A DNA stretch of 64,000 nt from Bacteroides helcogenes P 36-108 (GTDB lineage: Bacteria; Bacteroidota; Bacteroidia; Bacteroidales; Bacteroidaceae). The notes beneath the pieces were generated by a model. It did not search any database and was not told where the DNA came from. It worked only from the letters and a program-made list of their open reading frames with translations. Positions 377 to 21,836 of this stretch are shown piece after piece; position 1 is the stretch's first letter, and every line of letters begins with the position of its first letter. The stretch is taken from positions 1,860,001-1,924,000 of the forward strand of contig NC_014933.1 of assembly GCF_000186225.1 (NCBI RefSeq), read 5' to 3'. Position numbers and translations under genes: made by a program.

Positions 377-3300
377 ATGCTAAAACGGCTAAAAACAGTC
401 AGTATGATGCTGCTTCTCATGAGTTCCTCTACCGGAGCAGCGTATGCGGTTGCCAACCCCGGCGTGACCGATGTTAAAATCACACAACAGAATGGAAAGT
501 GCACCGGAATAGTGAAAGATACTACGGGTGAAACCGTTATCGGTGCATCTGTGGTGGTAAAAGGAACTACTAATGGAGTTATCACCGGTCTTGACGGCGA
601 CTTTACCCTTACCGGCGTGAAGAAGGGAGATATCATCCAAATCTCTTTCGTGGGCTATGTCACTCAAGAAGTGAAATGGGAAGGACAACCTCTGAACATC
701 ATTATGCAGGACGATTCCCGGCAATTGGAAGAGGTTGTGGTAACAGCCATGGGTATCAAAAAAGATGCAAAGAAGTTAGGTTATGCAGTCAGCTCGGTTT
801 CTGCAGCCGATTTAACAAAAACGGGCGGCAGCAATCTCGCTTCCGGACTTTATGGTAAGGCAACAGGTGTCCGCATCCAGTCAGCTCCCGGTGGCGGTAC
901 TTCAGCGGTATCTATTTCTGTTCGCGGACTTTCTTCAATCACAGGTAATACGCAGCCTCTGCTTATTATGGATGGTGTGCCCATTCATAACGGAAATACC
1001 AACAACAATGATTACTGGTCCAACCAACGAATCAATTCCAACGGTCTTGTTGATATCAATCCGGAGGATATTGAGAATATATCTATCTTGAAAGGTGCTG
1101 CCGCATCTGCACTTTATGGCTCGGAAGCTGCCAATGGTGTTGTAATGATTACCACAAAGAAAGGTAAAAAAGGATCGGGCACAACTGTTGATTTTAGTGC
1201 AAACCTGAGCTTTGACAAGGTGGCTTATATGCCTGAGATTCAAAAAGAGTATGGTCCCGGTTATGATAACTGGGTGCTTGGAAACGATAATGAACAAGCA
1301 CTTACCGGTTTCCGACAGACTCGTTTTGACCTTAATGGCAACTCTATTATTACTCCAAACCGTGAATCATATTTCTCGTGGGGAGCCAAATATGATCCGA
1401 ACAAGACTGTCACTTACTTTGACGGTACTCAGCGTGCATTTACTCCTATCGACCACAATCAGTGGGCTGATATTTTCCGTACGGGTGTTAATCAGACTTA
1501 TAATGTTGCTTTGACCAACAGTACAGAGCGCAACAATGTCCGTTTCTCTTATACTTATAATGATGCGCAAGCCATGCAGTACAATTCAAATAATCATAAA
1601 CATAATTTTAATTTGAATGGTACATTTGATGTAGCTAAAGATATCAAGCTGAATTATACAGCTACTTATACTACCCAATATATCAAGAACCGTGCTTATC
1701 GTATCAGCCGTCTGACAAACAATTACAGCGGTATGTTCGGTGGATTCACCGATGTGGCATATATCCGCGATCACACTGTTACAAGCTTGGGCTACATGAA
1801 CAGCATTGCGGCTGTCAACGGTGGTACAAGCAATACTTTGACGCCGAGCGAGCAATTCCTTTACAGCCCGATGGGCTCTACCTCACTGATGAGTGAGTAT
1901 TTCTGGAATATCTTTGGAAAGACACAAGAGGAAGAACATAACCGCTTTATCGGTTCTGTTAATCCTACTTGGGAAATCATTCCTGGCTTGACTTTGAGTG
2001 GACGTATTGCTACTGACCTTACAACGGATAAGATTGAGAACAAGAACAGTGCGGAAAATGCGCATATCTTTTCTACCAACGGTCAGTACAGTGATTCTTA
2101 CGGGCTCATCAACAACCGCTATCAGATTGTGTATGGCGACATCATGTTGATGTTTGACAAGACTTTCTACGAAAAGCATAATATTACTGCCAATCTGGGC
2201 TGGAATGTCCGTCAGGAAACTTTCTATGAATCAAGCGTGAGCACAAGCAATGGTCTGACTCAAGAGAATTGGTTCAACCTTGCCGCATCTGTAGGCAACA
2301 AGAATGCAAATATGTCAAAATCGGATTTGCTTCGTACGGGTATGTTCCTGACTGCAAGCTACGGATATAACAGTTGGGGATTCCTTGAAGGCTCAATCCG
2401 TCAGGAAAAGACTTCTACATTGAAGAATGGAAACAACTCTTTCTGGTATCCGTCGGTAAGTGCCAGTGTGGTTTATACGGAATTATTCAAGGATGCGCTT
2501 CCTCAATGGTGGAATTATGGTAAACTGCGTGCCTCTTATGGTGTCGTAGGTAACGCGCCCGAAATCTATCGTGCTAACAGAGCGTATAAACAAGGCTCTC
2601 TGACGAGGACATCCACTTACACTTATAATTATGTTGATGTGGAAGTCGGTAATGATGGCATCAAGCCGGAAACCAAATATGAGTTTGAAATAGGTATTGA
2701 GAACAAGTTCTTCAACAACCGTTTGGGAATGGAATTCAGCTATTACTATAACGACATTAAAGACCAGATTCTTACTACCACGGCAGCTGCTTCTATGGGA
2801 GGCCGCAGTATGTTGATGAATGTGGGTGAACTTACAAACACAGGTATTGAATTGAGTCTTTATGGAACTCCCTATCAGAATAAAGACTGGCGCTGGGATG
2901 TTCGCGGTAATCTCGCATGGAACCAGAACAAGGTGAAGAAACTTGCCGATGGCCTTGATGTGCTTTCACACTTAACCATAGACGGTGGAGCAGCAAGCCT
3001 TGAATCTCACGTGGGTGAAGCTATGGGTGACTGGTACACCTATACTTATAAGACAGATGATAACGGGAATTACATTGTAGGCAGTGATGGACTTTACATT
3101 GCCGACAAATCGGAACGTCATAAGGTAGGAAATGCCATGCCCAAGTTCACGGGTGGTTTCGGCACAAGCTTGAGTTGGAAGAACCTTACTTTGGATGTTA
3201 CATTTGACTTCCGCATTGGTGGCAGTGTACTTAATCAGCCGTGGCAGTACATGATGGATGCCGGTACTATTACTGATGCCGTTGGTGTCCGTGACCATTC

Positions 3301-3823
3301 AACAGGTGGTGTGTTCTATTATAGTGATAAGGAAGATGTTTCTGATAAATCTTCTATCCACGTACTCACGGAGAGTGAGGTTGCGGGTATCAGAGATTCT
3401 TATAAGCGTGGTGATAAGTTCAACGGACACTATCTTTGGGATAACGGTGTTATCCAGAAGGGTGTAAAGGAAGATGGTACTCCGAACGACATAATTGTAA
3501 CTCAGTTCGAAATCAATGACAGCCAGTATGGTTGGGGTACGGGAGCAACTCAGAGCTATCAGGAGGCTATCCAGAAAAACAGCTATGTGAAGTGTCGTGA
3601 AATCAGTTTGGCTTATACATTGCCCACAAGCTGGACCAAGAAGTTCGCTTGCAACAATCTGACCGTTTCTGCTTTTGCACGCAATCCGTTCTATATTTAT
3701 CGCAGCCTGAAGTTGTTCGACTCTGAAACGTCTGATGCCACAAACTGGATTTATCAGGCACAAGTTGGTGGCTCTACCGCCAGTGCCCGTACATTCGGTG
3801 TGTCTCTTCGTGCCAGCTTCTAA
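377..3823 (+). CDS. SusC-like TonB-dependent outer-membrane receptor
   Basis: A 1148-residue outer-membrane transporter that would import an oligosaccharide across the outer membrane with its SusD partner. The start gives a good signal peptide (basic MLKRLK, hydrophobic core, A-Y-A cut). A carboxypeptidase-regulatory-like beta-sandwich follows (residues about 40-115, with G-T-T-N-G and D-G-D-F), then a TonB box region (LEEVVVTAMG near 118), a plug domain (VRGLSS near 183, then D-G-V-P) and a long beta-barrel ending in aromatic F (RASF). No N-terminal STN domain is visible, so anti-sigma signalling through this receptor is unlikely. SusD begins 37 bases downstream. Substrate cannot be read from the sequence; the neighbouring enzymes point to N-glycans. 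Confidence 0.96.
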   Translation: MLKRLKTVSMMLLLMSSSTGAAYAVANPGVTDVKITQQNGKCTGIVKDTTGETVIGASVVVKGTTNGVITGLDGDFTLTGVKKGDIIQISFVGYVTQEVKWEGQPLNIIMQDDSRQLEEVVVTAMGIKKDAKKLGYAVSSVSAADLTKTGGSNLASGLYGKATGVRIQSAPGGGTSAVSISVRGLSSITGNTQPLLIMDGVPIHNGNTNNNDYWSNQRINSNGLVDINPEDIENISILKGAAASALYGSEAANGVVMITTKKGKKGSGTTVDFSANLSFDKVAYMPEIQKEYGPGYDNWVLGNDNEQALTGFRQTRFDLNGNSIITPNRESYFSWGAKYDPNKTVTYFDGTQRAFTPIDHNQWADIFRTGVNQTYNVALTNSTERNNVRFSYTYNDAQAMQYNSNNHKHNFNLNGTFDVAKDIKLNYTATYTTQYIKNRAYRISRLTNNYSGMFGGFTDVAYIRDHTVTSLGYMNSIAAVNGGTSNTLTPSEQFLYSPMGSTSLMSEYFWNIFGKTQEEEHNRFIGSVNPTWEIIPGLTLSGRIATDLTTDKIENKNSAENAHIFSTNGQYSDSYGLINNRYQIVYGDIMLMFDKTFYEKHNITANLGWNVRQETFYESSVSTSNGLTQENWFNLAASVGNKNANMSKSDLLRTGMFLTASYGYNSWGFLEGSIRQEKTSTLKNGNNSFWYPSVSASVVYTELFKDALPQWWNYGKLRASYGVVGNAPEIYRANRAYKQGSLTRTSTYTYNYVDVEVGNDGIKPETKYEFEIGIENKFFNNRLGMEFSYYYNDIKDQILTTTAAASMGGRSMLMNVGELTNTGIELSLYGTPYQNKDWRWDVRGNLAWNQNKVKKLADGLDVLSHLTIDGGAASLESHVGEAMGDWYTYTYKTDDNGNYIVGSDGLYIADKSERHKVGNAMPKFTGGFGTSLSWKNLTLDVTFDFRIGGSVLNQPWQYMMDAGTITDAVGVRDHSTGGVFYYSDKEDVSDKSSIHVLTESEVAGIRDSYKRGDKFNGHYLWDNGVIQKGVKEDGTPNDIIVTQFEINDSQYGWGTGATQSYQEAIQKNSYVKCREISLAYTLPTSWTKKFACNNLTVSAFARNPFYIYRSLKLFDSETSDATNWIYQAQVGGSTASARTFGVSLRASF

Positions 3824-3860
3824 CTCAAACTTTATTGAAATTACATTAAATAAGATATAT

Positions 3861-5579
3861 ATGAAAAAGATATTTTCTACGTTATTTGTTGGAATGGCCC
3901 TCACATCACTCGTTGCATGCTCTGATTTAGACTACGATGAGAAATATGTGGACTCTTCCACAACATCAACGGTAGGTGTGCCACAAGTTTTCACTGCCGT
4001 GATGTACAAGGGTAATACATGGATGAATCCTGTTTACTATCGTTATTATACACAGTCAGCTACTTCCGGTATTTTTTCCGGTATAATAGGCAACAGCAAT
4101 GGTAAAGGCCGTTTTATGGGAGCCGGTGAAGGTTACTTCAATACCCGTTGGAAGGACTTCTATGATATGCTGACTCAGTTCCGTTTGTTGGAGAATACCT
4201 ATAACAATCTTTCTGGAGAAGAAAAGCCGGTCAATGAGATTTTCTATTACCTCGGCCGTACTCTCGTTGAAGGACAACTTCACGAAATGCTTTCTCTTTT
4301 TGGAGACGTTCCATTCACAGGGGCTGGCACTCTTTGGAATTCGGATTATAATACAGCCAAAGAACAGTGTGTGTATGATGATGACGTAGCTCTCTATAAG
4401 CAAATTCTTGCAGACCTCAAGGAAGTAGGCGACTACTTTGCGGCAGGTAATCTGAATACTGCGGGGCTTGCTTCTCTTGCTCGTCAGGATTATTCTATTG
4501 CTGCCGGCAGTAGTACTATTTGGCAGAAGTATGTCAATTCGCTTCGCCTTCGTATTGCTCTCCATCTTGCCACTAATGGTGATTGTACCACGGAGGCTAA
4601 AGCAGCTATTGCTGAGATTCTGAATAATCCAACCAAATATCCGCTTATAGATGACAATTCAGAAAATCAGGGTGTTGCCGGCGATACTCAAACTGATACT
4701 TTTAACTTTGGAAAGAGCATGTCACAAGCACTCAGAACTGGAGGTATGGCCGCAGGTTCGCAGACTGTGCTCAATGCCATGAATCTTCCTGCAAATGGTG
4801 TTCCTGATGCTGGTACTGATCCGCGTATTCAGGTAATTTACGATTGCAATCCTGACGGTGAATATATTGCGTACGATGTAAATCTTACAAGTTCCCAAAT
4901 CAGCGATATCAGTGATAAAAAGCATGAGGAGTATGTTAAGAGAGGTATGACGTCTGCAAACTATTACTGTGAGGTTGACTCTCAGGCTGTTGCCGGATGG
5001 GCTTCTTATCAAGGCAATGCCAATCTGAATGGCCTTTGGATCAGCGCTGCAGAAGTTAGTCTCAGTAAGGCGGAGGCATATTTAATGGGATATGGAGTCT
5101 CTCAGAATGAAACTGCCGCAAAGGAGAATTTCATTAAAGGCATTAAGCAGTCCACTGAATATTATTGGAACCTGAAAGAGACGAGCTCTCTTTATAAGAA
5201 TGGCAACGACAGCTATGCCGGATTCCGTTCATTGGCTAAGCCTACTGACGCTGAAGTTGCAGCTTATGCAGAAAGTGTTTGGAAACCTACACAAGAGGCT
5301 GTTTGTACCCAACTATGGCTTAATTTTAGTTTTATGAACGAACTTGAGGCATGGAATGTAGTACGTCGTACAAGTTATCCGGTAGTGACTTTTGCGAAGG
5401 ACAGCCAAGTAGCCAATTATCCGACTCCTCCGAACCGGTTACCCTATCCGAGTGATGAACTTAGCTACAACAGTGCAAATTGCCAGGCCGCTATTTCAAA
5501 GAACTACGAAGAAACAACCGGCTATTATACAAACTTGTTTTGGGCCAATAAGACTTATTACAAGCTTGTAAGTGAATAA
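3861..5579 (+). CDS. SusD-like surface glycan-binding lipoprotein
   Basis: A 572-residue lipoprotein that would cap the SusC barrel and bind glycan at the cell surface. I place the start at the ATG at 3861, because this yields a lipoprotein signal (MKKIFSTLFVGMALTSLVAC, lipobox LVAC, Cys 20); a longer in-frame extension overlaps the susC end and lacks a signal. The body is typical of the SusD/RagB superfamily: tetratricopeptide-like helices, a GWASYQGN region and a C-terminal LPYPSDELSYN segment, which is a common SusD ending. It belongs to the large SusD-like 2 type by length and C-terminus. It is co-transcribed with susC and followed by a terminator at 5620-5652. Confidence 0.94.
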   Translation: MKKIFSTLFVGMALTSLVACSDLDYDEKYVDSSTTSTVGVPQVFTAVMYKGNTWMNPVYYRYYTQSATSGIFSGIIGNSNGKGRFMGAGEGYFNTRWKDFYDMLTQFRLLENTYNNLSGEEKPVNEIFYYLGRTLVEGQLHEMLSLFGDVPFTGAGTLWNSDYNTAKEQCVYDDDVALYKQILADLKEVGDYFAAGNLNTAGLASLARQDYSIAAGSSTIWQKYVNSLRLRIALHLATNGDCTTEAKAAIAEILNNPTKYPLIDDNSENQGVAGDTQTDTFNFGKSMSQALRTGGMAAGSQTVLNAMNLPANGVPDAGTDPRIQVIYDCNPDGEYIAYDVNLTSSQISDISDKKHEEYVKRGMTSANYYCEVDSQAVAGWASYQGNANLNGLWISAAEVSLSKAEAYLMGYGVSQNETAAKENFIKGIKQSTEYYWNLKETSSLYKNGNDSYAGFRSLAKPTDAEVAAYAESVWKPTQEAVCTQLWLNFSFMNELEAWNVVRRTSYPVVTFAKDSQVANYPTPPNRLPYPSDELSYNSANCQAAISKNYEETTGYYTNLFWANKTYYKLVSE

Positions 5580-5619
5580 TTAAGTTTCATCAGCCCGATG
5601 GGACTGATGGGTATAATGG

Positions 5620-5652
5620 CTCCGGCAGTTTTGTTGACTGCCGGAGTTTTTT
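5620..5652 (+). terminator. Rho-independent terminator after susD
   Basis: A perfect 10-bp stem CTCCGGCAGT (5620-5629) / ACTGCCGGAG (5637-5646) with a 7-base loop is followed directly by TTTTTT. It separates susCD from the downstream glycosidase operon, so the latter either has its own promoter in 5653-5803 (none of the TAnnTTTG form was evident) or depends on read-through. Confidence 0.85.
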
Positions 5653-5803: not shown

Positions 5804-7180
5804 ATGAGAAACCTAAAAAACTGGGTAGCCTGTTTGCTTGGAGCTACCTGTACTTTGAACCTGAGCGCCCAGCAAGAGAACAGTTACATTCATGAGCAGT
5901 CTGACGGTTACGAATGGCCTACCGACAAGGAAGTGCTTGCCAAGCTGGATAAGTGGCAAGATCAGAAATTCGGTGTTTTGTTTCATTGGGGACTTTATTC
6001 ACAAGCCGGCAAGGTGGAGTCCTGGTCTATCTGCTCCGAAGACTGGATTACCCGTGACATGGATTCTTACGTGGATTACAAAAAATGGTACTGGGGATTG
6101 ATGGATTCTTTTAATCCCACCGATTTTAATCCCGAACAATGGGCAGATGTGATGCAGGATGCAGGCATGAAGTATATGTTGTTTACTACGAAGCATCATG
6201 ACGGTTTTTGTATGTTCGACTCAAAGTATTCGGATTTCTCCATAGCCAAAGGTCCTTTTGCCGCCGACCCTCGTAAGGATGTGGCACGTCACGTGTTTGA
6301 CGCCTTTCGTAAGAAGGGCTTTATGATGGGATGTTATTTCTCCAAGCCTGACTGGCATTATGAATATTATTGGAGTCCTTACTATGCTACTCCCAATCGA
6401 AGTATCAATTATAAGAAGGAGAGGCATCCGGATTGGTGGAAAAATTATCAGCAGTTCACTTATAACCAAATGAATGAGCTGATGACAAACTATGGAAGTT
6501 TTGACATTCTGTGGTTGGATGGTGGATGGGAAACCGGTGATGACGTGGGGCTGAATGAACTATTGGCGAAGGTGCGTACTTCTACACAACCCGGATTGAT
6601 TTCGGTGGACCGGACTATTCGTGGCAAAAATGAAAACTATCAGACGCCCGAACGCAGTATTCCCGCCAAACAGATGAATCATCCATGGGAAAGTTGCATC
6701 ACACTGAGTGACAATTGGGGATGGGTTCCGGGATCGGTATTTAAGTCGGCAAACAGAGTGGTAAGCATCTTGACGGAAATTACGGCTAAGGGTGGTTGTT
6801 TGGTATTAGGCGTAGGTCCCACACCACAGGGTGTTATTGAACCGGAAGTCGCAGAGCGCCTCCACGAAATTGGTGAATGGTTGAGAGGTAACGGGAAAGC
6901 CATTTACAATACACGTACTACTCCCGATTATAACGATGGAAATGTATGGTTTACCGCAGACAAGGATGGAGAAACCATCTATGCGGTTTATGTCCTGAAT
7001 GATGGAGATACTTTGCCTCGTAGCGTTGAATGGAGAGGAAATGTTCCGATCGGCAAAATGACGATGCTCAAAGGGAATAAACGCGTGAAGTATGTCTGCA
7101 AAGACGGCAAGGTGACGGTCACTTTACCTGAGGGATTAAAGAATGAGCCGGTGGCATTTTGCTTCAAACTGAGGAAATAG
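5804..7180 (+). CDS. GH29 alpha-L-fucosidase (first paralogue)
   Basis: A secreted 458-residue enzyme that would remove alpha-linked L-fucose from glycans by a retaining mechanism. A signal peptide covers residues 1-22 (cut after L-S-A). GH29 hallmarks are FHWGLYS near 60, HHDGFCMFDS at 131-140, and the catalytic nucleophile in FDILWLDGGW (Asp 239). The C-terminal part (about 365-458) forms a small beta-domain. It is a close paralogue of the enzyme at 9173-10561; long stretches are identical. It heads an operon with the downstream FGE/propeller gene (21-base gap). Linkage preference (core alpha-1,3, alpha-1,6 or antenna fucose) cannot be read directly. Confidence 0.93.
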   Translation: MRNLKNWVACLLGATCTLNLSAQQENSYIHEQSDGYEWPTDKEVLAKLDKWQDQKFGVLFHWGLYSQAGKVESWSICSEDWITRDMDSYVDYKKWYWGLMDSFNPTDFNPEQWADVMQDAGMKYMLFTTKHHDGFCMFDSKYSDFSIAKGPFAADPRKDVARHVFDAFRKKGFMMGCYFSKPDWHYEYYWSPYYATPNRSINYKKERHPDWWKNYQQFTYNQMNELMTNYGSFDILWLDGGWETGDDVGLNELLAKVRTSTQPGLISVDRTIRGKNENYQTPERSIPAKQMNHPWESCITLSDNWGWVPGSVFKSANRVVSILTEITAKGGCLVLGVGPTPQGVIEPEVAERLHEIGEWLRGNGKAIYNTRTTPDYNDGNVWFTADKDGETIYAVYVLNDGDTLPRSVEWRGNVPIGKMTMLKGNKRVKYVCKDGKVTVTLPEGLKNEPVAFCFKLRK

Positions 7181-7201
7181 GATATCAAAAGCAAAAATAC
7201 A

Positions 7202-9172: not shown

Positions 9173-10561
9173 ATGAAGAATTTGAATAGACTATTGGGGT
9201 ATGCGGCATTGGTCGTACTTCCGATAACGGTAAATGCTCAGCAGGTGCAAGGCTTTGTGCATCAACAGTCAGAGGCTGCGGACTATGTATGGCCTGCAGA
9301 CAAGCAAGTATTGGATAAACTGGATAAATGGCAAGATCAGAAATTCGGCGTTTTGTTTCATTGGGGGCTTTATTCCGTGCCCGGCATTGTAGAGTCCTGG
9401 TCCATTTGTTCGGAAGATGTGGATTGGATTACCCGCAAAGGGAATTTGCCTTATGAGGAATATAAGAAATGGTATTGGGGATTGAAGGATTCTCTGAACC
9501 CGGTAAACTTCAATCCCGGACAATGGGCGGACGTGATGCAGGATGCAGGCATGAGGTATATGATTTTCACTACCAAACATCATGATGGATTCTGCATGTT
9601 TGATAGTAAATATACTGATTTTTCTATAGCTAACGGCGCTTTTAAAAACAATCCCCGCAAGGATGTGGCACGTCATGTGTTCGATGCTTTCCGTCAGAAG
9701 GGATTTATGATGGGGTGTTATTTCTCCAAGCCTGATTGGCATTGTCAATGGTTTTGGAATGATTATTACGCTACTCCGAACCGCCGCATCAACTATAAGA
9801 AGGAAATGCATCCTGACTGGTGGAAAAATTATCAGACTTTCACTCAGAATCAACTGGACGAACTGATGAATGGTTATGGCAGTTTTGACATCCTTTGGTT
9901 GGATGGTGGCTGGATAACGGGTGATGATATTAATCTGGACGGCATTTTGAAGAAAGCACGTAGCCGGCATCCGGGACTTATTGCTGTGGATCGTAGTATT
10001 CGTGGCAAGAATGAGAACTATCAGACTCCCGAACGCGGCATTCCTGAAACGCAGCTTAACTATCCATGGGAAAGCTGTATCACGTTGAGTAATGATTGGG
10101 GGTGGGTTCCTAATGCACCGTTCAAGTCTCCACAGAAAGTGATTAATATTTTGGCGGAGATTACTGCCAAAGGTGGTTGTTTGCTGTTGGGGGTAGGTCC
10201 TACGCCCGATGGCGTGATTGAAGAAGAAGTTGCCAAACGTTTGCATGTGGTAGGCGAATGGTTGAGAACCAATGGGGAGGCAATCTATAATACTCGTACC
10301 ACTGCGGTATATCGTGATGGGAATACTTGGTTCACAGCTTCAAAGGACGGAAAGACATTGTATGCTGTTTATGCTTTGCCTGAAGAAGAAAAATTACCTG
10401 CAACGATTCATTGGAACGGCAATATTCCTAAGGGAAGCATGAAACTTCTGAAAGGAAACAAGACTGTGAAATATACTTGTCAGGGTGAGGAGGTGATTGT
10501 CACTCTGCCGAAGGGCTTGAAGAATGAACCTGTGGCATTGGCTTTTACACTGAGAAAATAA
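9173..10561 (+). CDS. GH29 alpha-L-fucosidase (second paralogue)
   Basis: A secreted 462-residue alpha-L-fucosidase with a signal peptide of about 22 residues (cut after V-N-A). It keeps HHDGFCMFDS (137-146) and the nucleophile motif FDILWLDGGW (Asp 244). It differs from the upstream paralogue mainly in the loop after ESWSICSED (extra V-D and N-L-P-Y-E-E) and in residues after KPDWH (CQWFWND against YEYYWSP), places that could tune acceptor recognition. It follows the FGE/propeller gene by 33 bases and precedes the GH3 gene by 13 bases, consistent with one operon. Confidence 0.93.
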   Translation: MKNLNRLLGYAALVVLPITVNAQQVQGFVHQQSEAADYVWPADKQVLDKLDKWQDQKFGVLFHWGLYSVPGIVESWSICSEDVDWITRKGNLPYEEYKKWYWGLKDSLNPVNFNPGQWADVMQDAGMRYMIFTTKHHDGFCMFDSKYTDFSIANGAFKNNPRKDVARHVFDAFRQKGFMMGCYFSKPDWHCQWFWNDYYATPNRRINYKKEMHPDWWKNYQTFTQNQLDELMNGYGSFDILWLDGGWITGDDINLDGILKKARSRHPGLIAVDRSIRGKNENYQTPERGIPETQLNYPWESCITLSNDWGWVPNAPFKSPQKVINILAEITAKGGCLLLGVGPTPDGVIEEEVAKRLHVVGEWLRTNGEAIYNTRTTAVYRDGNTWFTASKDGKTLYAVYALPEEEKLPATIHWNGNIPKGSMKLLKGNKTVKYTCQGEEVIVTLPKGLKNEPVALAFTLRK

Positions 10562-12920: not shown

Positions 12921-12939
12921 TAGCCTCTATATTTAAGAT

Positions 12940-12981
12940 AAGTCCCGGAAATGTGATGGATCCGTCACATTTCCGGGACTT
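12940..12981. terminator. Bidirectional hairpin between convergent GH3 and GH92 genes
   Basis: A perfect 17-bp inverted repeat (12940-12956 with 12965-12981, arms AAGTCCCGGAAATGTGA and its complement) encloses an 8-base loop. It lies in the 99-base gap between the 3' ends of two convergent genes. There is no strong T-run on either side, but the stem length and position suit a shared terminator. Confidence 0.8.
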
Positions 12982-13019
12982 AGTCTATTTGAATTGAGCT
13001 TTTTCGAGGAGACTTTTGT

Positions 13020-15212
13020 TTATTTCATTTTATAGACCAAAGTGCCTCCTTTCAGGATGTCTTCGTGGGTAATATGGTTTTTAGTATAAGGTTTACCATT
13101 CAAAGTAATGCTATCCACATATTTATGTTCTTTAGAGAGCCCTTCGGAAATCACGGTAAAAGTCTTTCCATCTGCTAAATGAAGTACGAATTTCGGCATT
13201 TGAGGTGCTCCGAATACATACTCGCCGCTTACGGGATTCACTGGGTAAAATCCCATGGCAGAGAACATGTACCATGCTGACATCTGTCCGCAATCATCGT
13301 TGCCACAAAGCCCGTCGGGTACGGGACGATATTGCGTGTCGAATATTTCGCGGATCAGCTCTTGGGTACGTTCCGGACGTCCTGCAAGGGCATATAGATA
13401 GGCGATGTGATGACTCGGTTCGTTACCATGGGCATATTGTCCGATGAGGCCGGTGACATCGGCTTGTTTAGTTTCCAACTTTACGGAAAAGAGAGAGTCT
13501 AACTTGTTGAGAAAAGGTTTTTCACCACCGAAGAGGGCAATAAGGCCGGGTACATCATGTTGCACATGCCAGGTATATTGCCAGGCATTGCCTTCCGTGT
13601 AGTCTCCACCATTGCTCTCGGAATGAGTTACGTCACTGGGATTGAAAGGTGATTTCCATGTACCGTCGGCATTGCGGGGCCGCATGAATAAGGTTTCCTT
13701 GTCGAACAGGTTTTTGTAGAAGCTTGTCCGCCTGCCAAAGTAGACGGCTTCTTCTGTTTTGCCCATCAGTTTGGCCATCTCGGCTGCGGCATAGTCATCA
13801 TAAACGGATTCTAAAGTGGAAGATACGGATTCTGCTTCAGTCAAGTCAGTAGGCAGATAGCCATACTGCATATAGTTATTCCAATCAGATTTCAGTTTGT
13901 GAGGGATAGTCTGTGTCTTTTTTATAGCTTGGAAAGCACGTTCGGCATCGAAGCCACGGAAGCCTTTGCGATAGGCTTCCGCCACTACGGACACTCCATG
14001 GTTGGCTATCATACAGTAATTTTCTTTTCCCCACAATCCCCATATAGGCAAGAAGCCTTGTACTTCGGACTGTTCTACCAATGAACTGACAAAACCGTCC
14101 ACACGTTCGGGAACCATCAGGGTATAGAACGGATGGGCGGCTCGGTAAGTATCCCATAAAGAGAAAGTGGAATAGAAAGTGCCGGTTTCTGCTTTCACTA
14201 TACTGTCCGCGGCATTACGATACATGCCGTCCACGTCCGAGATTTGGTTCGGTTGAATCAAAGCATGGTAGAAGCCGGTATAGAAGTTCGTTTTTTCTTC
14301 ATCGCTTCCGGTTACTTCGATGCGGCTCAGGTACTTGTTCCAGTTGTCGTGGGCAGCTTTTTTCACTTCTTCAAAATTCCATCCGGATATTTCGGCATTC
14401 ATGTTTCTCTTGGCTCCTTCTATACTGGTGGTGGAGAGTGCTACTTTCATCATCAATACATCTTCGGGATTTAGGCTGAAAGTGGCGATGATACGTTTGC
14501 CTTTTTCCGTTTCGGCCAATGGCAAGTATATGGAATCAGAGACAGGACGGTTGAACTTCATCACAAAGAAATAGTCCTGGCTCACCCATACGCTGTTGCG
14601 CACGTGTCCGGTCAAGGTCTGTGAATCTTCCCAACTCACATCACAGCTTTGCACCTGCGAATGATATTGTTTTTCATTCCAACTTGGACCGTGCTGAAGG
14701 TCAATCAGGATGGAAGCTGAGTCGGTTTTATGGTAGGTGTAGCGATGCAGGGCGACATGCGTGGAGGCAGTCAGTTCGGCTCTGACTTGCGGTTCGTTCA
14801 ATTCTACGGTATAATATCCCGGTGTAGCAGCTTCTTTTTCTTTGTCGAAATGGCTGCGGTAAGCATCCCAGTTGCGGGTACGTTTCCCGGTGACGGGCAT
14901 TACAAGAATATCCCCCAGATCCATACAGCCTGTTCCGTTCAAATGGGTTTGGGTAAATCCCCAAATCAGAGAGTCGCTATATACGTATTCTGCACAATAT
15001 CTCCATCCTATGGCTCCGGTGACAGGACTGGTCTGAATCATGCCGAACGGAGTACATGCTCCGGGGAAGGTATGTCCGTTGTCTGCTGCTCCTATAAAGG
15101 GATTTACGTACTGGGTATAGTCAGTTTCTGCGGTGGTTGTCTTTGTAGAGTTGCAGCCCAGCAGTGTGCTGCTCAGGGCTAATACATATAAGATAATATG
15201 GTTTTTCTTCAT
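13020..15212 (-). CDS. GH92 alpha-mannosidase, lipoprotein
   Basis: A 730-residue calcium-dependent exo-alpha-mannosidase of family GH92, anchored as a lipoprotein. I chose the ATG at 15210-15212 because it gives a lipoprotein signal with lipobox LLGC (Cys 20 of MKKNHIILYVLALSSTLLGC); a longer frame start adds an unlikely leader. Family signs are Y-V-N-P-F-I-G near the N-terminus, G-C-M-D-L-G-D, TFSLWDTYRAAHP, the catalytic-acid region YTEGNAWQYTW and the base/calcium region GLCGNDDCGQMSAWYMF. It is followed upstream on the same strand by the PNGase gene (26-base gap), so mannose trimming and glycan release are co-expressed. Confidence 0.92.
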   Translation of the reverse strand: MKKNHIILYVLALSSTLLGCNSTKTTTAETDYTQYVNPFIGAADNGHTFPGACTPFGMIQTSPVTGAIGWRYCAEYVYSDSLIWGFTQTHLNGTGCMDLGDILVMPVTGKRTRNWDAYRSHFDKEKEAATPGYYTVELNEPQVRAELTASTHVALHRYTYHKTDSASILIDLQHGPSWNEKQYHSQVQSCDVSWEDSQTLTGHVRNSVWVSQDYFFVMKFNRPVSDSIYLPLAETEKGKRIIATFSLNPEDVLMMKVALSTTSIEGAKRNMNAEISGWNFEEVKKAAHDNWNKYLSRIEVTGSDEEKTNFYTGFYHALIQPNQISDVDGMYRNAADSIVKAETGTFYSTFSLWDTYRAAHPFYTLMVPERVDGFVSSLVEQSEVQGFLPIWGLWGKENYCMIANHGVSVVAEAYRKGFRGFDAERAFQAIKKTQTIPHKLKSDWNNYMQYGYLPTDLTEAESVSSTLESVYDDYAAAEMAKLMGKTEEAVYFGRRTSFYKNLFDKETLFMRPRNADGTWKSPFNPSDVTHSESNGGDYTEGNAWQYTWHVQHDVPGLIALFGGEKPFLNKLDSLFSVKLETKQADVTGLIGQYAHGNEPSHHIAYLYALAGRPERTQELIREIFDTQYRPVPDGLCGNDDCGQMSAWYMFSAMGFYPVNPVSGEYVFGAPQMPKFVLHLADGKTFTVISEGLSKEHKYVDSITLNGKPYTKNHITHEDILKGGTLVYKMK

Positions 15213-15238
15213 AATTATTATTTTGGGGATGAATAGAA

Positions 15239-16960
15239 TCAATAAATCAATGTTCCGGAGATGCACCAATAACTGTTACTGTTTCCTTCGGGGGCTCCTT
15301 GCGGTATTTGTACGCTGAGAGTATGCTCTCCAGCTTCCAAATTGCCAAGACAGATATACTCCGGATTGGTAACAGTGCCGGGACACCAGTTGGAACGGCT
15401 AAGGTCGGATGAGCTAAGACCATTGGAAAAGTTTCCTGAACAGGGATTCAGGTTGCGGTAAGTGCCGCAGTCATCACGCCAAGGAATGAAGGTTATGATT
15501 TTTTGTCCGTCCAGCAGGATGGTGTTGGGCTTTTGGTTGAATTCATCACCACCGCCCCAGCCACCATGTCCGGTGGTGAGGTAGAATAGGCGTGCATTGG
15601 TTACGGGTTCGTTCAGGGTAAATTTTACACGTAAGGTATCATTTCCCAGGAAAGTAGGATAAGCCTGTCCGGCTTGTTCCAGATAGTTTACGGTATTGAA
15701 TAGAGGTATGGTCTTCAATATACGGTGTTCGTCGTCCGGATAGTATTTCAGATTGAGCGACAGGCGGTGGCCTTTGGCATCCCAGTTGCCGATATAGGCG
15801 CCGATCCAGGCTTCGCCTTGCAGGTGTTCGGCAAGGTTCGTCACTTCGGATTTATAGAGTACAGAGTCCACCCAATCTTGTCCTTTTACCTTATTATAAT
15901 TGAACTTGCGTACACCAAAGGCGGTGAAAAAACGCATCAGTTCAAGAGGTGTGTCATAATAGGGTGTGGAAATGAGTGCCGGATAGGCCATATCTTTGGA
16001 TTGGAAAGCCGGTACGCTTTTGAGGTCACGGATGGCATCGAGAAAGGATTGCTTCTTTCCGGTGGGAATCACGAAGATGGATCCGGTGCGGTCATAAGCA
16101 TCTCCATCGGAATATTGGGCCACTTCCACAAAAATACTGCGGTTCTTTACATACTCCGGCAGTTTTACTTTTTTCAGGATAATAGTACCTCCGCCGGCGG
16201 GATACATGATACCTTCTTCGAGTGTGGCAGGCAGTTTAGCACCATTGAAGCAGATGGGCTGCTGGTCGAATACGGGTATGGTAATGACACCGCTTTGGTT
16301 GATGGTGTATTGATAATCATCGGCATCCAGTGCTTCACCCCAGGTGGTAGGTAGCAGATTCTCTGCTTTCTTCAGGGGAGAAATGGAGGAGGCTTCCTGC
16401 ACCATATCTCCGTTGCGGATTACTTTCAGCACTAATCCGTCGGGTACACCAACGTTGGCTTGCGGTGTTCCTCGAAAAGGAATGTCATTGGTGTACCAGA
16501 CTTCGATGGTATTGGAACGCAGTGAAGTGCGGAGTATCTTGCAGTTCAGGCCTAAGTGTTTTCCTTCGCCTGCTTCGGTGAATCCGGCGCCTATCCTGAA
16601 CGGAGTGGCAGCGGAGATGACTTTCCCGTTAGGCAACTTGGCAAGACGATAGGCTTGGCAAGAAGAATAATCTATGTAGTTACTGGTCACCGGTGTTTCA
16701 ATTTCGGGAGTCGGTTCTCCTACTGTTTCAGGACTTTGTTCTTGGGGTGGAAGCACATTCTTCAAGGCTACTTGATCCATGCAGACTGTCATTTGCATCT
16801 GTCCGGGAATTGTTTTGCCTTTATAGACACTTCGGTAAATGACTTCGATACCTTTGGCATTTTTTAATTTTTTCTGCATGTTTTGTGCAGAAATGGTTGT
16901 GGACAAGGTAAGGATGCATAACATCAGTAACCATGTTTTTTTGTTCCGTTTTGCTTTCAT
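15239..16960 (-). CDS. Large PNGase F-type peptide-N-glycosidase with N-terminal extension
   Basis: A 573-residue exported amidase (signal peptide about 1-25, cut after S-A-Q) that would cleave the Asn-GlcNAc amide bond and release whole N-glycans. The C-terminal half matches PNGase F: GDAYDRTGSIFVIP, with Asp 290 aligning to catalytic Asp 60; GGDEFNQKPNTILLDG, with Glu 473 aligning to Glu 206; and SNWCPGTV, aligning to GWCPGM. An additional domain of about 190 residues (27-215) is absent from short PNGase F but fits the large PNGases such as Elizabethkingia PNGase F-II, which carry an N-terminal bowl-like domain and accept core alpha-1,3-fucose. The segment VWYTNDIPFRG...GVPDGLVLKV resembles GLPGLI-family proteins. 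It is divergent from the MFS gene. Confidence 0.87.
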   Translation of the reverse strand: MKAKRNKKTWLLMLCILTLSTTISAQNMQKKLKNAKGIEVIYRSVYKGKTIPGQMQMTVCMDQVALKNVLPPQEQSPETVGEPTPEIETPVTSNYIDYSSCQAYRLAKLPNGKVISAATPFRIGAGFTEAGEGKHLGLNCKILRTSLRSNTIEVWYTNDIPFRGTPQANVGVPDGLVLKVIRNGDMVQEASSISPLKKAENLLPTTWGEALDADDYQYTINQSGVITIPVFDQQPICFNGAKLPATLEEGIMYPAGGGTIILKKVKLPEYVKNRSIFVEVAQYSDGDAYDRTGSIFVIPTGKKQSFLDAIRDLKSVPAFQSKDMAYPALISTPYYDTPLELMRFFTAFGVRKFNYNKVKGQDWVDSVLYKSEVTNLAEHLQGEAWIGAYIGNWDAKGHRLSLNLKYYPDDEHRILKTIPLFNTVNYLEQAGQAYPTFLGNDTLRVKFTLNEPVTNARLFYLTTGHGGWGGGDEFNQKPNTILLDGQKIITFIPWRDDCGTYRNLNPCSGNFSNGLSSSDLSRSNWCPGTVTNPEYICLGNLEAGEHTLSVQIPQGAPEGNSNSYWCISGTLIY

Positions 16961-17249: not shown

Positions 17250-18557
17250 ATGAAAAACATTACTCGTACACCTGTTTGGTGGGTTCCTACTGCCTATTTT
17301 GCTATGGGGTTACCTTTTATTGCTGTTAATTTGGTTTCTACATTTATGTTCAAGGATTTGGGCATTTCCGATACTCAGATAGCCTTTTGGACTTCTGTCA
17401 TTATGATGCCCTGGACTCTGAAATTTCTGTGGAGCCCTTTTTTGGAGATGTATCGCACGAAGAAGTTCTTTGTGGTGGTTACCCAACTACTTAGCGGATT
17501 GCTGTTTGGTTTGGTGGCTTTTTCTTTGAAGTTTGATTATTTTTTCGCCATCAGCATCTCTACTATGGCTATGGTGGCTCTTAGTGGAGCTACTCATGAT
17601 GTGGCTTGTGATGGTGTGTACATGGATGAACTTTCACCGACTGATCAGGCAAAATATATCGGTGTGCAAGGTGCTTTCTATAATATAGCTAAGCTGGTGG
17701 CGAATGGAGGTCTGGTGGCGATGGCCGGTATGCTTTCAAAACATTATGGAGCTGTGGAAGGAGGCTCTATCACTGAAAATATTTCGGCTTATAAAGAGGC
17801 ATGGATGATTATTTTTATTGTTATTTCCTTACTGTTAATTACTCTTGGAGTTTACCATTCTAAAATGCTGCCATCTACGCAGGTACGGGTGTATAAACAA
17901 CGTTCAGCTTCTGAAGTGTTGCAGGAATTATGGGCGGTAATTTGCAATTTCTTTACCAAGAAATATATTTTATATTATATTTGCTTTATTATTCTTTACC
18001 GTTTTGCCGAAGGATTTGTAATGAAGATAGCGCCGCTTTTCTTACGTTCCTCACGTGAGATGGGAGGCTTAGGGCTTTCGTTGACAGAGATAGGGACACT
18101 TAATGGAGTTTTTGGTTCGGCAGCTTTCGTTTTGGGCTCTTTGCTGGCAGGTATGTATGTCTCGAAATTAGGATTGAAGAAGACGCTGTTTTCTCTCTGT
18201 TGCGTATTTAATTTCCCGTTTGCGGTTTATACCTTGCTGGCTGTTTTTCAACCTGAAAGTTTGTATTTGATAGGTACTGGTATAGTGTTTGAGTATTTTG
18301 GATATGGTTTTGGATTTGTGGGTCTTACATTGTTTATGATGCAGCAAATAGCTCCCGGAAAGCATCAGATGTCTCATTATGCTTTTGCATCAGGTATCAT
18401 GAATTTAGGCGTGATGCTTCCGGGGATGATGAGTGGTTATCTCAGTGACAGATATGGATATGAGCGATTCTTTATTTATGTACTTTTGGCTGCTCTTCCG
18501 TCTTTGATGATAACTTATTTCATACCGTTTACTTATGATGACTCGAAGAAGAAATAA
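17250..18557 (+). CDS. MFS permease, likely Man-GlcNAc importer
   Basis: A 435-residue inner-membrane major facilitator protein with about 12 hydrophobic segments and no signal peptide. The N-terminus ([15 protein letters not shown], then [10 protein letters not shown]) and [15 protein letters not shown] resemble the AmpG-like branch of MFS. It precedes GH130 (32-base gap) and GH92, the same order as BT1034-BT1033-BT1032 in B. thetaiotaomicron. The inferred role is moving beta-mannosyl-GlcNAc, the trimmed N-glycan core, into the cytoplasm for phosphorolysis. Family assignment is firm; the substrate is inferred from context. Confidence 0.85.
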
Positions 18558-18589: not shown

Positions 18590-19561
18590 ATGAATGACAA
18601 AATTGTAATGCCTTGGGAAGAACGTCCGGAAGGATGTTCAGATGTGATGTGGCGTTATTCAAAGAATCCGGTTATTGGTCGTTACCATATACCGACTTCA
18701 AACAGTATTTTCAACAGTGCAGTAGTTCCGTTCGGCGATGGTTTTGCCGGAGTATTTCGTTGTGACAACAAAGCAGTGCAGATGAATATCTTTGCAGGCT
18801 TCAGTAAAGATGGTATCAACTGGGAGATCAGTCATGAACCTATTTCTTTCAAAGCAGGAAATACGAATATGATAGAGTCTGAATATAAATATGATCCGCG
18901 TGTCACTTGGATTGAAGATCGCTACTGGATTACTTGGTGTAATGGCTATCATGGCCCTACTATCGGCATTGGTTACACATTCGATTTTAAAGAGTTCTTC
19001 CAGTGTGAGAATGCTTTTTTGCCCTTTAATCGTAATGGTGTGCTTTTTCCTCAGAAGATAAATGGTAAGTATGCCATGTTGAGCCGTCCAAGTGATAACG
19101 GACATACCCCATTTGGGGATATTTACCTTAGTTATAGCCCGGACATGAAATATTGGGGTGAACATCGCTGTGTGATGAAAGTGACTCCTTTTCCGGAAAG
19201 TGCCTGGCAGTGCACTAAGATAGGAGCAGGCTCTGTACCATTTTTGACCGATGAAGGTTGGCTGATTTTTTATCATGGAGTCATCACTACTTGTAATGGT
19301 TTCCGATATTCTATGGGAGCAGCCATTCTTGATAAAGAGAATCCTGACAAAGTTTTGTATCGTACACGTGAATATTTGCTTGCACCTGCTGCTTCTTATG
19401 AATTACAGGGGGATGTGCCTAATGTTGTATTCCCGTGTGCTGCATTACAGGATGGAAACAGAGTTGCAGTGTATTATGGCGCTGCCGATACGGTTGTAGG
19501 AATGGCTTTCGGCTATATTTCCGAGATTATAGAGTTTACCAAGCGGACGAGCGTTATTTAA
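18590..19561 (+). CDS. GH130 beta-1,4-mannosyl-GlcNAc phosphorylase
   Basis: A 323-residue cytoplasmic enzyme (no signal peptide) of the GH130 five-bladed propeller family. These enzymes split beta-mannosides with phosphate to give alpha-mannose 1-phosphate. The catalytic aspartate is Asp 102 in [11 protein letters not shown], equivalent to Asp 104 of UhgbMP. Further family motifs are [22 protein letters not shown] and LIFYHGV. The gene order with an MFS permease and GH92 matches the characterised B. thetaiotaomicron BT1033, a 4-O-beta-mannosyl-GlcNAc phosphorylase. The product would feed mannose 1-phosphate and GlcNAc into central metabolism without spending ATP on the mannose. Confidence 0.9.
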
Positions 19562-19586
19562 GCACCCCTTTATAAATTTTATTATC

Positions 19587-21836
19587 ATGAAACGAGCAAT
19601 CATTTCTTGTCTATTGTTCTTCGGCATGCACGCTGCGTTAATGTCGGCAGGAAAGAACTTATCACCGGTGGATTACGTCAATCCCTTCATTGGTACGACG
19701 AATTTCGGAACGACTAATCCGGGAGCTGTCTGTCCCAATGGAATGATGTCCGTAGTACCATTCAATGTGATGGGATCGGCGGATAACAAGTATGACAAAG
19801 ACGCACGCTGGTGGTCCACTCCTTACGAATACCATAATTGTTACTTTACAGGATATTCTCATGTGAACCTCAGCGGGGTGGGGTGTCCGGAGTTGGGTTC
19901 GCTTTTGTTGATGCCTACTACGGGTGTGTTATCTGTTGACTATAAGGAGTATGGCAGCCGCTATAAGGATGAGCAGGCTTCTCCAGGCTATTATACCAAT
20001 TTCCTGACTCGCTATAATGTGAAGACCGAAGTAACTGCTACTCCTCGTACAGGGGTGACACGCTTTACTTTCCCTGCCGGGCAAAGCCATGTCCTGCTTA
20101 ATCTGGGCGAAGGATTGACTAATGAATCCGGTGCTGTTTTGCGTCAGGTAAATGATTGTGAATTTGAGGGAATGAAACTGTTGGGCACTTTCTGTTACAA
20201 TCCTCAGGCGGTATTTCCCGTTTATTTTGTGATGCGTGTCAATAAGCGTCCTGTTACCTCCGGCTATTGGAAGAAACAGCGCCTTATGACAGGTGTGGAA
20301 GGTGAATGGGATCCGGACAATGGGCGTTATAAACTTTATACACGTTACCGCAAAGAGATTGCCGGAGATGACATAGGGGCTTACCTAACCTTTAATACAG
20401 AAGAAGGTGAACAAATAGAAGTTCAGATGGGAGTTTCCTTTGTCAGCATGGAAAATGCCCGACTCAATTTGGAAGTAGAGCAGAAAGGAAAAGATTTTAG
20501 TCGGATATTGGCTGAAAGCCGTCAGCGTTGGAACGATGATTTATCACGCATATTGGTGGAAGGTGGAACGGAAACCCAGAAGTCTGTTTTCTATACTGCG
20601 CTGTATCACTTGCTGATACATCCCAATATTTTGCAAGATGTGAACGGTCAATACCCTGCTATGGAGAGTGATAAAATACTGACCACAAAAGGTGATCGTT
20701 ATACTGTCTTTTCCTTGTGGGATACTTATCGCAATGTACATCAGCTTCTTACCTTGGTATATCCAGAACGACAGTTGCAAATGGTGCGTACTATGCTTGA
20801 TATGTACCGCGAACATGGCTGGTTGCCTAAATGGGAATTGTACGGACGTGAAACTCTGACTATGGAGGGTGATCCGTCTATTCCTGTTATAGTGGATACA
20901 TGGTTGAAAGGCTTGCGCGATTTTGATGTGGAGCTTGCTTACGAGGCTATGCGCAAGGGCGCTACATTGCCGGGGAGTGAGAATTTGCTGCGTCCGGACA
21001 ATGATGATTATCTTTCTTTAGGATATGTTCCTTTACGTGCTCAGTATGACAATTCCGTATCGCATGCTTTGGAGTATTACATTGCTGATAATGCCCTTTC
21101 ACGTCTTGCCGCTGCTTTGGGGAAGAAAGATGATGCTCGCCTGTTTTATAACCGTTCTTTAGGATACAAGCATTATTATAGCAAAGAGTTCGGGACTTTC
21201 CGCCCTATCTTGCCGAATGGTGAATTCTATTCTCCTTTCAATCCGATGCAAGGTGAGAACTTCGAGCCGAGCCCCGGTTTTCATGAAGGAAATTCATGGA
21301 ATTATACTTTCTACGTTCCCCACGATGTCAAGGGGCTGGCGCGTCTGATGGGAGGGAAAAAGCCTTTTATAGACAAACTCCAACGTGTTTTCGATGATGG
21401 GCTTTATGATCCTGCCAATGAGCCGGATATAGCTTATGCTCATCTTTTCTCTTATTTCAAGGGAGAGGAATGGCGTACCCAAAGAGAACTGCATCGGTTG
21501 TTGCAGAAATTCTTCAAGAATACTCCGGATGGCATTCCTGGTAATGACGATACCGGGACAATGTCTGCTTGGGCTGTCTTTAATATGATGGGATTTTATC
21601 CGGACTGTCCAGGAGAACCGGCCTATACACTTTCTACGCCGATATTCGATAAAGTAACTATTCGTCTTGACCAGAAATATTGGGGGAATGATAAATTGGT
21701 GATAGAGACTGAGCGCCCGTCTGTGGAATCATTGTACATCCGAGAAATGGAATTAGGGGGGCGGAAGTTCTCTCGCTACCGCATTGCTCATGAGGAGCTT
21801 GTACATGGTGGTACGTTGAAGTTCATCCTCCGTTAA
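19587..21836 (+). CDS. GH92 alpha-mannosidase (second)
   Basis: A 749-residue secreted GH92 exo-alpha-mannosidase with a type I-like signal peptide (about 1-21, cut after L-M-S-A). Family landmarks are DYVNPFIGTTNFGTTNPGA, GYSHVNLSGVGCPELGSL, VFSLWDTYRNVHQ, the acid region HEGNSWNYTF and the Asp pair GNDDTGTMSAWAVF. It differs from the GH92 at 13020-15212 at conserved positions (T for Q and A for Y in the last motif; NYTFYVPHD against QYTWHVQHD), so a different linkage preference is plausible. It is the last gene of the MFS-GH130-GH92 trio, with a strong terminator after it. Confidence 0.92.
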   Translation: MKRAIISCLLFFGMHAALMSAGKNLSPVDYVNPFIGTTNFGTTNPGAVCPNGMMSVVPFNVMGSADNKYDKDARWWSTPYEYHNCYFTGYSHVNLSGVGCPELGSLLLMPTTGVLSVDYKEYGSRYKDEQASPGYYTNFLTRYNVKTEVTATPRTGVTRFTFPAGQSHVLLNLGEGLTNESGAVLRQVNDCEFEGMKLLGTFCYNPQAVFPVYFVMRVNKRPVTSGYWKKQRLMTGVEGEWDPDNGRYKLYTRYRKEIAGDDIGAYLTFNTEEGEQIEVQMGVSFVSMENARLNLEVEQKGKDFSRILAESRQRWNDDLSRILVEGGTETQKSVFYTALYHLLIHPNILQDVNGQYPAMESDKILTTKGDRYTVFSLWDTYRNVHQLLTLVYPERQLQMVRTMLDMYREHGWLPKWELYGRETLTMEGDPSIPVIVDTWLKGLRDFDVELAYEAMRKGATLPGSENLLRPDNDDYLSLGYVPLRAQYDNSVSHALEYYIADNALSRLAAALGKKDDARLFYNRSLGYKHYYSKEFGTFRPILPNGEFYSPFNPMQGENFEPSPGFHEGNSWNYTFYVPHDVKGLARLMGGKKPFIDKLQRVFDDGLYDPANEPDIAYAHLFSYFKGEEWRTQRELHRLLQKFFKNTPDGIPGNDDTGTMSAWAVFNMMGFYPDCPGEPAYTLSTPIFDKVTIRLDQKYWGNDKLVIETERPSVESLYIREMELGGRKFSRYRIAHEELVHGGTLKFILR

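Follow-up and report, generated by a model that had tools for sequence, protein, structure and literature searches.

Positions 377 to 21,836 of the window (the whole 64,000-nucleotide stretch of the Bacteroides helcogenes P 36-108 genome analysed here) probably constitute a plant N-glycan utilisation locus that would feed the cell on plant glycoproteins; we put the probability of this reading at roughly 85%, because close relatives of four of its core enzymes have been proven in Bacteroides (Phocaeicola) massiliensis (PMC9522356). The idea of such a locus has a precedent: a B. helcogenes group 2 PNGase locus with SusC/D, GH29, GH3, GH130, and GH92 was named by Crouch et al. 2022 (PMC9522356). 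The locus gathers the core of the pathway in one place, and it offers candidates for steps left open in that paper: an alpha-1,6-mannosidase (GH92-B), an importer and a phosphorylase (the MFS protein and GH130), and, as a weak candidate galactosidase, a fusion of a formylglycine-generating-enzyme (FGE)-like domain to a sialidase-fold domain. Plant N-glycans are widespread in the diet and among allergens, and the enzymes that degrade them can be used to edit proteins made in plants (PMC9522356).

Gene content of the locus

Pfam and NCBIfam scans of positions 377 to 21,836 give 11 genes, listed below with two hairpins.

377..3823, +, SusC-type TonB-dependent outer-membrane importer (TIGR04056, 624 bits against a cut-off of 368)
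3735..5579, likely start 3861, +, SusD-like surface lipoprotein (PF12771, E 4e-35; lipobox-like N-terminus by eye)
5618..5648, +, hairpin of 13 pairs with a T-rich tail, 3' of SusD (pattern scan only)
5804..7180, +, GH29-A, alpha-L-fucosidase, paralogue of GH29-B (PF01120, E 4e-94; 69% to GH29-B)
7202..9139, +, secreted FGE-BNR fusion: FGE-like at about residues 28-252, sialidase-fold BNR at about 264-645 (PF03781, PF13088)
9173..10561, +, GH29-B, predicted core alpha-1,3-fucosidase (80% to the SusC/D-linked GH29 of G080)
10575..12920, +, GH3, predicted beta-1,2-xylosidase (76% to the G080 GH3 that lies with GH2, sulfatase, and AraC genes)
12939..12982, no strand assigned, hairpin of 20 pairs in the gap where GH3 and GH92-A converge (pattern scan only)
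13020..15269, likely start 15212, -, GH92-A, predicted xylose-tolerant alpha-1,3-mannosidase lipoprotein (7zgm, 1425 bits; six of six +1/xylose-site residues)
15239..16960, -, type II (group 2) PNGase with NBL domain (7zgn, 1017 bits; Gly391)
17250..18557, +, AmpG-like MFS transporter, predicted Man-GlcNAc(2) importer (PF07690; TIGR00901 sub-threshold, 135.7 bits against 350)
18590..19561, +, GH130, predicted cytoplasmic Man-beta-1,4-GlcNAc(2) phosphorylase (PF04041; closest solved relative Uhgb_MP)
19587..21836, +, GH92-B, candidate alpha-1,6-mannosidase (PF07971; 33% to GH92-A; genome co-occurrence)

These scans identify a SusC/SusD pair with linked glycosidases, the mark of a PUL, and confirm every member of an earlier note's gene list (SusC/SusD, PNGase, two GH29, GH3, two GH92, and an MFS-GH130 pair) as well as its statement that GH18, GH20, and GH2 are absent (0 among the 11 genes). 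The same note's description of the locus as compact did not hold, as the window begins within a larger region with a further GH92 complement and SusC/D pair upstream; the gene at 7202-9139 was missing from it. Neither a regulator nor a sulfatase is found among the 11 genes by profile scans. An AraC-type protein is encoded at 31716-33611, 10 kb downstream of the locus.

Probable orthology of the four core enzymes

A comparison with G080, a genome that we infer to be B. massiliensis or a near relative, provides the principal evidence. Specifically, i) the PNGase carries the N-terminal PNGase F-II/NBL domain (PF22252, E 3e-18) and both catalytic domains (PF09112, E 3e-55; PF09113, E 4e-51), finds its best PDB match in 7zgn, and is 79% identical to the G080 PNGase; ii) GH92-A is 82% identical to the G080 GH92, which carries the xylose-site residues of B035DRAFT_03340 (Y72, W178, W209, H530, E532, and S533; PMC9522356) at the published numbers, and the alignment shows that GH92-A keeps all six while neither GH92-B nor three GH92s upstream retain the set; iii) the 76% identity of GH3 to its G080 counterpart, whose gene is followed by GH2, sulfatase, and AraC genes, equals the value published for the B. 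helcogenes GH3 and B035DRAFT_00995, with the same GH3-GH2-sulfatase-AraC arrangement (PMC9522356); and iv) the G080 gene that is 80% identical to GH29-B is sited behind SusC/SusD-like genes, as is the core alpha-1,3-fucosidase B035DRAFT_02132, of which GH29-B is the predicted orthologue.

Judged by its NBL domain, its two catalytic domains, and Gly391, the window PNGase is a type II (group 2) enzyme. In an alignment of 13 type II rows, which represent 12 genomes because the window's own enzyme is counted twice, and 18 type I rows, residue 391 is always Gly in the former and always Asp in the latter; the type I matches of two further genomes came without a locus and are not part of it. A three-residue insert bearing Glu is confined to the type II rows. 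In group 2 PNGases this Gly takes the place of an Asp/Glu by which core alpha-1,3-fucose would be blocked (PMC9522356). PNGase F-II of Elizabethkingia meningoseptica (4r4z) is likewise a two-domain type II PNGase, but at 443 bits is more distant from the window enzyme than is 7zgn, and has a wider activity range on mammalian glycans (PMC9522356).

Orthology to the B. massiliensis enzymes thus favors the plant-type N-glycan target proposed in the earlier note; the NBL domain, 7zgn match, and Gly391 argue for its F-II-type PNGase tolerant of core alpha-1,3-fucose, and the B035DRAFT_00995 relationship, drawn through G080, for its suggestion that GH3 may be a beta-1,2-xylosidase. The proposed role for both fucosidases survives in part: GH29-B is probably the core alpha-1,3-fucosidase orthologue, while GH29-A is only a 69% paralogue of it.

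The PNGase, GH92-A, GH3, and GH29-B genes lie together within 8 kb in B. helcogenes, accompanied by GH29-A, FGE-BNR, MFS, GH130, and GH92-B; in the B. massiliensis-like G080, by contrast, where the relatives of the pathway enzymes are 76-82% identical to those of the window, GH3 is 2.6 Mb from PNGase, GH92, and GH29 on the same contig. Genomes G001, G031, and G054 carry consecutive PNGase, GH29 (52-53%), GH3 (65-67%), and GH92-A (68-69%) genes, and G073 has PNGase, GH20, GH29, GH92-A, GH3, GH130, and GH92-B within about 33 kb. The B. helcogenes genome differs from the B. massiliensis pathway in having no match to its GH2 galactosidase at E <= 1e-60. A further N-glycan cluster, cited in PMC10154615 (Dupoiron et al. 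2015), belongs to a plant pathogen of another phylum, Xanthomonas campestris.

A proposed pathway

The gene content, the similarities, the diagnostic residues, and the clustering of the four genes are evident in the DNA itself; we infer functional orthology and the substrates, order, and compartments of the following pathway. SusC/D would import glycopeptides, and the type II PNGase would detach their glycan; GH92-A would then take alpha-1,3-mannose, GH3 the xylose, and GH29-B the core alpha-1,3-fucose, in that order; GH92-B would next remove alpha-1,6-mannose; and the MFS protein would carry Man-GlcNAc2 into the cytoplasm for phosphorolysis by GH130. Antennal GlcNAc would fall to GH20 enzymes whose genes lie outside the locus.

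The closest solved relative of GH130 is Uhgb_MP (4udg, 514 bits), a mannoside phosphorylase from a gut bacterium which it resembles at the sequence level; matches to NCBIfam equivalogs all fall below their cut-offs. Both GH130 and GH92-B occur in 12 of 12 type II PNGase genomes (compared with 61 and 74 of all 251 genomes; p 2e-8 and 2e-7, respectively, uncorrected for relatedness). Type I PNGase genomes also carry GH130 (17/20) and GH92-B (18/20), and only 2 of the 12 type II genomes have the two genes no more than 2 kb apart, so the unit is not plant-specific; MFS-GH130-GH92-B resembles a set of general use on N-glycan cores, in which GH92-B is the candidate alpha-1,6-mannosidase of the pathway.

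Alternative substrates

Plants need not be the sole target, because the B. massiliensis PNGase, the orthologue of the window enzyme, also deglycosylates an insect glycoprotein, bee-venom phospholipase A2 (PMC9522356). The locus might then serve insect or other invertebrate glycoproteins equally, with GH29-A and GH29-B, tandem-type paralogues of 69% identity, dividing core alpha-1,3- and alpha-1,6-fucose between them. We consider this improbable: a GH92-A with the full set of xylose-site residues and a xylosidase-like GH3 point to xylosylated, plant-type cores, and L009, L010, and L015, loci of the same lineage, lack GH29-A. Very improbable, too, is a locus devoted mainly to high-mannose N-glycans or mannan, to which the PNGase and its neighbors were added. 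The DNA immediately preceding the window encodes three GH92 enzymes in tandem, along with a TIM-barrel lipoprotein and a divergent SusC/SusD pair; with the two GH92 genes in the window, five of the six GH92 matches of the genome fall within about 35 kb, and three GH92s are likewise found in a B. thetaiotaomicron high-mannose operon (PMC10154615). High-mannose breakdown, however, has no place for GH3 and two GH29s, and the xylose-site residues are found in GH92-A but not in the three upstream enzymes. The upstream TIM-barrel lipoprotein (L068:3410-4519) was considered as a GH18/GH85-type endoglycosidase; this is unsupported, its best structural matches being Cwp19 and PgaB, which exclude nothing. 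Elsewhere in the genome are a type I PNGase, 10 GH20 matches at 8 places, one GH18 above cut-off, and two more BNR_2 proteins. Given the type I PNGase and the GH18, the claim that glycan release relies on the PNGase stands for this locus but not genome-wide.

It is also very unlikely that the gene at 7202-9139 encodes a sialidase or sulfatase-activating enzyme and that the locus therefore handles sialylated or sulfated glycans as well. Its two halves (FGE-sulfatase PF03781, E 7.2e-48; BNR_2 sialidase-superfamily PF13088, E 2.6e-20) are predicted to take the fold of formylglycine-generating enzymes and the beta-propeller fold of GH33 sialidases, but by alignment the catalytic signatures are not retained. 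Of the GH33 arginine triad, an alignment of about 23% identity leaves one (Arg483) and puts His291 at the FRIP Arg and a Lys/Gly stretch at the third Arg. For the Tyr/Glu nucleophile pair, the Tyr could be Tyr615 or Phe603, and the Glu may correspond to His467, a pairing made by eye without gaps at a point where the aligner opened one. The FGE active-site Cys pair aligns with Thr223 and a gap, in a stretch with no Cys, and none of the 11 genes encodes a sulfatase. His291, His467, and Arg483 are invariant in all 37 rows of a hand-picked FGE-BNR alignment.

The FGE-BNR fusion

For the FGE-BNR protein, the likeliest role is that of an exo-acting enzyme or a lectin directed at a sugar other than sialic acid. 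Our best guess for its target, a weak one, is antennal beta-1,3-galactose, for which the locus has no known enzyme. A bolder and doubtful proposal combines two parts: that the fusion founds a new glycosidase family (sialidase fold, a His289-Asn290-His291/His467/Arg483 pocket, and the Cys-less FGE domain as lectin) that removes terminal beta-1,3-galactose or another antennal cap where GH2 is missing, and that GH92-B is the core alpha-1,6-mannosidase. A GH2 orthologue (93-100%) is present in 2 of 13 genomes searched (G080 and G062) and an N-glycan-clade FGE-BNR in G000, G112, and G196, but the pattern of replacement is weak because 6 of the 13 have neither.

In one lineage FGE-BNR is linked to GH29/GH3 genes: its clade at >= 70% identity comprises 10 of 66 loci (L002-L010 and L015), eight of which adjoin GH29/GH3. 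L007 stops within the FGE-BNR gene, and L005, which has hardly any upstream sequence and a GH28-like gene on its downstream side, is a possible counter-example. A required part in the pathway is unsupported, FGE-BNR occurring in 4 of 12 type II genomes (p 0.0017) and being no less strongly associated with type I PNGase (6 of 20 genomes, p 1.4e-4); two of those four type II copies (G249 and G073) belong to other clades with no GH29/GH3 match in the fetched stretch, and no association with GH92-B is seen (5/13, p 0.33). Nor can FGE-BNR be equated with the "sulfatase" beside the B. massiliensis GH3: the G080 counterpart of that gene is a Pfam sulfatase, and a search of G080 for FGE-BNR gives no match at E <= 1e-100.

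Outside the N-glycan clade, a scan of representatives of the neighbor clusters finds pectinesterase, Pec_lyase, and GH88 beside Phocaeicola-type FGE-BNR genes, a topoisomerase at four Parabacteroides loci, and nothing coherent in other phyla. The FGE-BNR tree has 38 rows labelled by neighborhood, and omits L005, L007, L014, L028, L030-L032, L038, L042-L067, the copy in G121, and those genome copies whose contigs the tree already had. Two secreted proteins without a Pfam or NCBIfam match lie beside FGE-BNR and GH3 in L002 and L003. We found no paper describing the FGE and BNR domain pair in the open-licence PMC literature; the fusion is common in gut metagenomes, and both domains are present in all 120 homologues listed.

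Gene content and organization

The window spans bases 1,860,001-1,924,000 of the one-contig genome (3,998,906 bp) of B. helcogenes P 36-108T, a species from pig faeces (PMC3072090). Pfam and NCBIfam scans bore out the gene list of the earlier note in full (SusC, SusD, two GH29s, GH3, two GH92s, PNGase, MFS, and GH130); the PNGase carries an N-terminal PNGase F-II domain. Only the gene at 7202-9139, encoding a two-domain formylglycine-enzyme-like and sialidase-fold fusion (FGE-BNR), was missing from that list. The 11 genes form three strand-defined units; signal peptides were assessed by eye.

Features of the locus
Unit 1, + strand: SusC (377-3823), SusD (3735-5579), GH29-A (5804-7180), FGE-BNR (7202-9139), GH29-B (9173-10561), GH3 (10575-12920)
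Unit 2, - strand: PNGase (15239-16960), GH92-A (13020-15269)
Unit 3, + strand: MFS (17250-18557), GH130 (18590-19561), GH92-B (19587-21836)
5618-5648: 13-pair hairpin 3' of SusD, pattern match only
12939-12982: 20-pair hairpin between units 1 and 2, pattern match only

The scan for terminator-like patterns found 26 sites against 16.3 expected.

Relation to plant N-glycan breakdown

Crouch et al. (2022; PMC9522356) characterised the CAZymes with which B. massiliensis dismantles plant complex N-glycans, and noted that in B. helcogenes and B. vulgatus a larger locus with SusC/D, GH29, GH3, GH130, and extra GH92 apparently surrounds the group 2 PNGase gene; the present locus is therefore already published as a bioinformatic association. 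No second paper naming both 'B. helcogenes' and 'PNGase' was found in the literature searched. As a finding the locus is thus already known, and the remaining interest lies in the FGE-BNR fusion and GH92-B.

The plant-type purpose proposed in the earlier note is probably right, judging from relatives of the B. massiliensis PNGase, GH92, GH3, and GH29, with diagnostic residues in the first two. Specifically, i) among solved structures the PNGase best matches 7zgn (1017 bits), which by its code in PMC9522356 is the B. massiliensis PNGase, and next E. meningoseptica PNGase F-II (443 bits); ii) residue 391 is Gly in 13/13 aligned rows of type II (group 2) PNGases, representing 12 genomes with the window's copy counted twice, and Asp in 18/18 type I rows, and a three-residue insert with Glu is common to the type II rows, a pattern that fits the published specificity switch; iii) a B. 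massiliensis-like genome, G080, has Gly at PNGase position 388 and Y72, W178, W209, H530, E532, and S533 in the adjoining GH92, numbered as in PMC9522356, and by these residues behaves as B. massiliensis; iv) GH92-A (top solved match 7zgm, 1425 bits) is 82% identical to the G080 GH92 and keeps all six residues, a set not kept in GH92-B or in three GH92 proteins encoded upstream; and v) the nearest G080 relatives of GH3 (76%, the figure also stated for the B. helcogenes GH3 in PMC9522356; neighbours GH2, sulfatase, and AraC regulator) and of GH29-B (80%; following SusC and a SusD-sized gene) lie in the surroundings described there for the xylosidase and core fucosidase. GH29-A is a paralogue of GH29-B (69%). 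In G080, unlike the window, GH3 lies 2.6 Mb away from PNGase, GH92, and GH29; PNGase, a GH29 (52-53%), GH3, and GH92-A are consecutive in three other genomes (G001, G031, and G054), so the window's grouping is not unique.

From genes, similarities, and residues we infer a pathway in which SusC/D would import glycopeptides; the PNGase would release the glycan, probably in the periplasm; GH92-A, GH3, and GH29-B would remove alpha-1,3-mannose, xylose, and core fucose, respectively, in the published order; GH92-B would remove alpha-1,6-mannose; the MFS would import Man-GlcNAc2 for phosphorolysis by GH130; and GH20 enzymes encoded elsewhere in the genome would deal with antennal GlcNAc.

GH92-B and GH130

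According to Crouch et al. (PMC9522356), no enzyme had been reported for the remaining alpha-1,6-mannose, and GH92-B is by inference a candidate alpha-1,6-mannosidase. The nearest solved relative of GH130 is Uhgb_MP (514 bits). Of 251 family genomes, 12 have a type II PNGase, 20 a type I PNGase, 74 GH92-B, and 61 GH130 (raw genome counts ignoring kinship, at E-value limits set per search). GH92-B is found together with GH130 in 59 genomes, and in 28 the two lie no more than 2 kb apart. Both seem to be N-glycan-core genes of general rather than plant-specific use, because they are common in type II genomes (both in 12/12) and type I genomes (18/20 and 17/20, respectively), and seldom adjacent in the former (within 2 kb in just 2/12, the window and G073). 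G073 (L107, L175) has a larger one-contig N-glycan locus with PNGase, GH20, GH29, GH92-A, GH3, GH130, and GH92-B, together with two glucosamine-6-phosphate-isomerase-type genes and an MFS of another family.

The FGE-BNR fusion

Ten fetched loci carry FGE-BNR at 70% identity or more, eight of them beside GH29/GH3; of the others, L007 ends within the FGE-BNR gene and L005 has a GH28-like neighbour. In a tree built from 38 selected rows, ten rows from N-glycan loci form a single clade (SH-aLRT 99; equal clustering in 0/500 shuffles), and three loci (L009, L010, and L015) retain SusC, FGE-BNR, GH29-B, and GH3, with no match to GH29-A. In one lineage FGE-BNR therefore goes together with the fucosidase-xylosidase pair. 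It is not a required partner, because a copy is present in only 4/12 genomes with type II PNGase and its association with type I genomes (6/20) is equally strong.

More distant copies lie beside pectin-type genes in Phocaeicola and, in four loci from Parabacteroides, beside a topoisomerase gene. Other-clade copies near pectinesterase, Pec_lyase, GH88, or MFS genes (L017, L018, L020, L022, and L023) hint at a pectin-related substrate of their own. The two-domain fusion, at 43-54% identity, also occurs in Planctomycetota, Armatimonadota, Kiritimatiellae, Acidobacteria, Omnitrophota, and Chitinophagaceae (L026-L041), with no shared neighbour gene found around it in these loci.

A weak pattern is compatible with a galactosidase role for FGE-BNR: among 13 genomes searched, G080 and G062 have the GH2 galactosidase orthologue, whereas B. 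helcogenes, G112, and G196 have FGE-BNR of the N-glycan clade and lack that orthologue, but six have neither gene. Two long proteins with secretion-type N-termini (L002:6242-8692 and L003:17464-19668) adjoin FGE-BNR or GH3 in related loci; neither has a Pfam or NCBIfam match, and they could possibly be new-type enzymes of plant N-glycan breakdown.

Surroundings and rest of the genome

SusC begins 376 bases into the window, and the larger region extends upstream with three GH92 genes in tandem, a gene for a TIM-barrel lipoprotein, and a SusC/SusD pair that is divergent; these genes are probably part of this N-glycan locus or of one next to it. This block (L099:14448-19029 and L068:1014-9457; genome 1,846,448-1,859,457) directly precedes the window, and its lipoprotein is of YddW/GHL10 type, with Cwp19 and PgaB as nearest solved folds. 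Of the six GH92 matches in the genome, five fall within about 35 kb.

Outside the locus the genome has ten GH20 matches at eight places, one GH18 match above the cut-off, and two further BNR_2 proteins, one bearing the sialidase FRIP motif. It also encodes a second PNGase, of type I with Asp at the switch position (C1:60147-61292; L098); the distance from this gene to a GH20 match is 18 kb, and to the sixth GH92 match 25 kb. A TPR-containing AraC-type regulator is encoded at window positions 31716-33611, 10 kb downstream of the locus.
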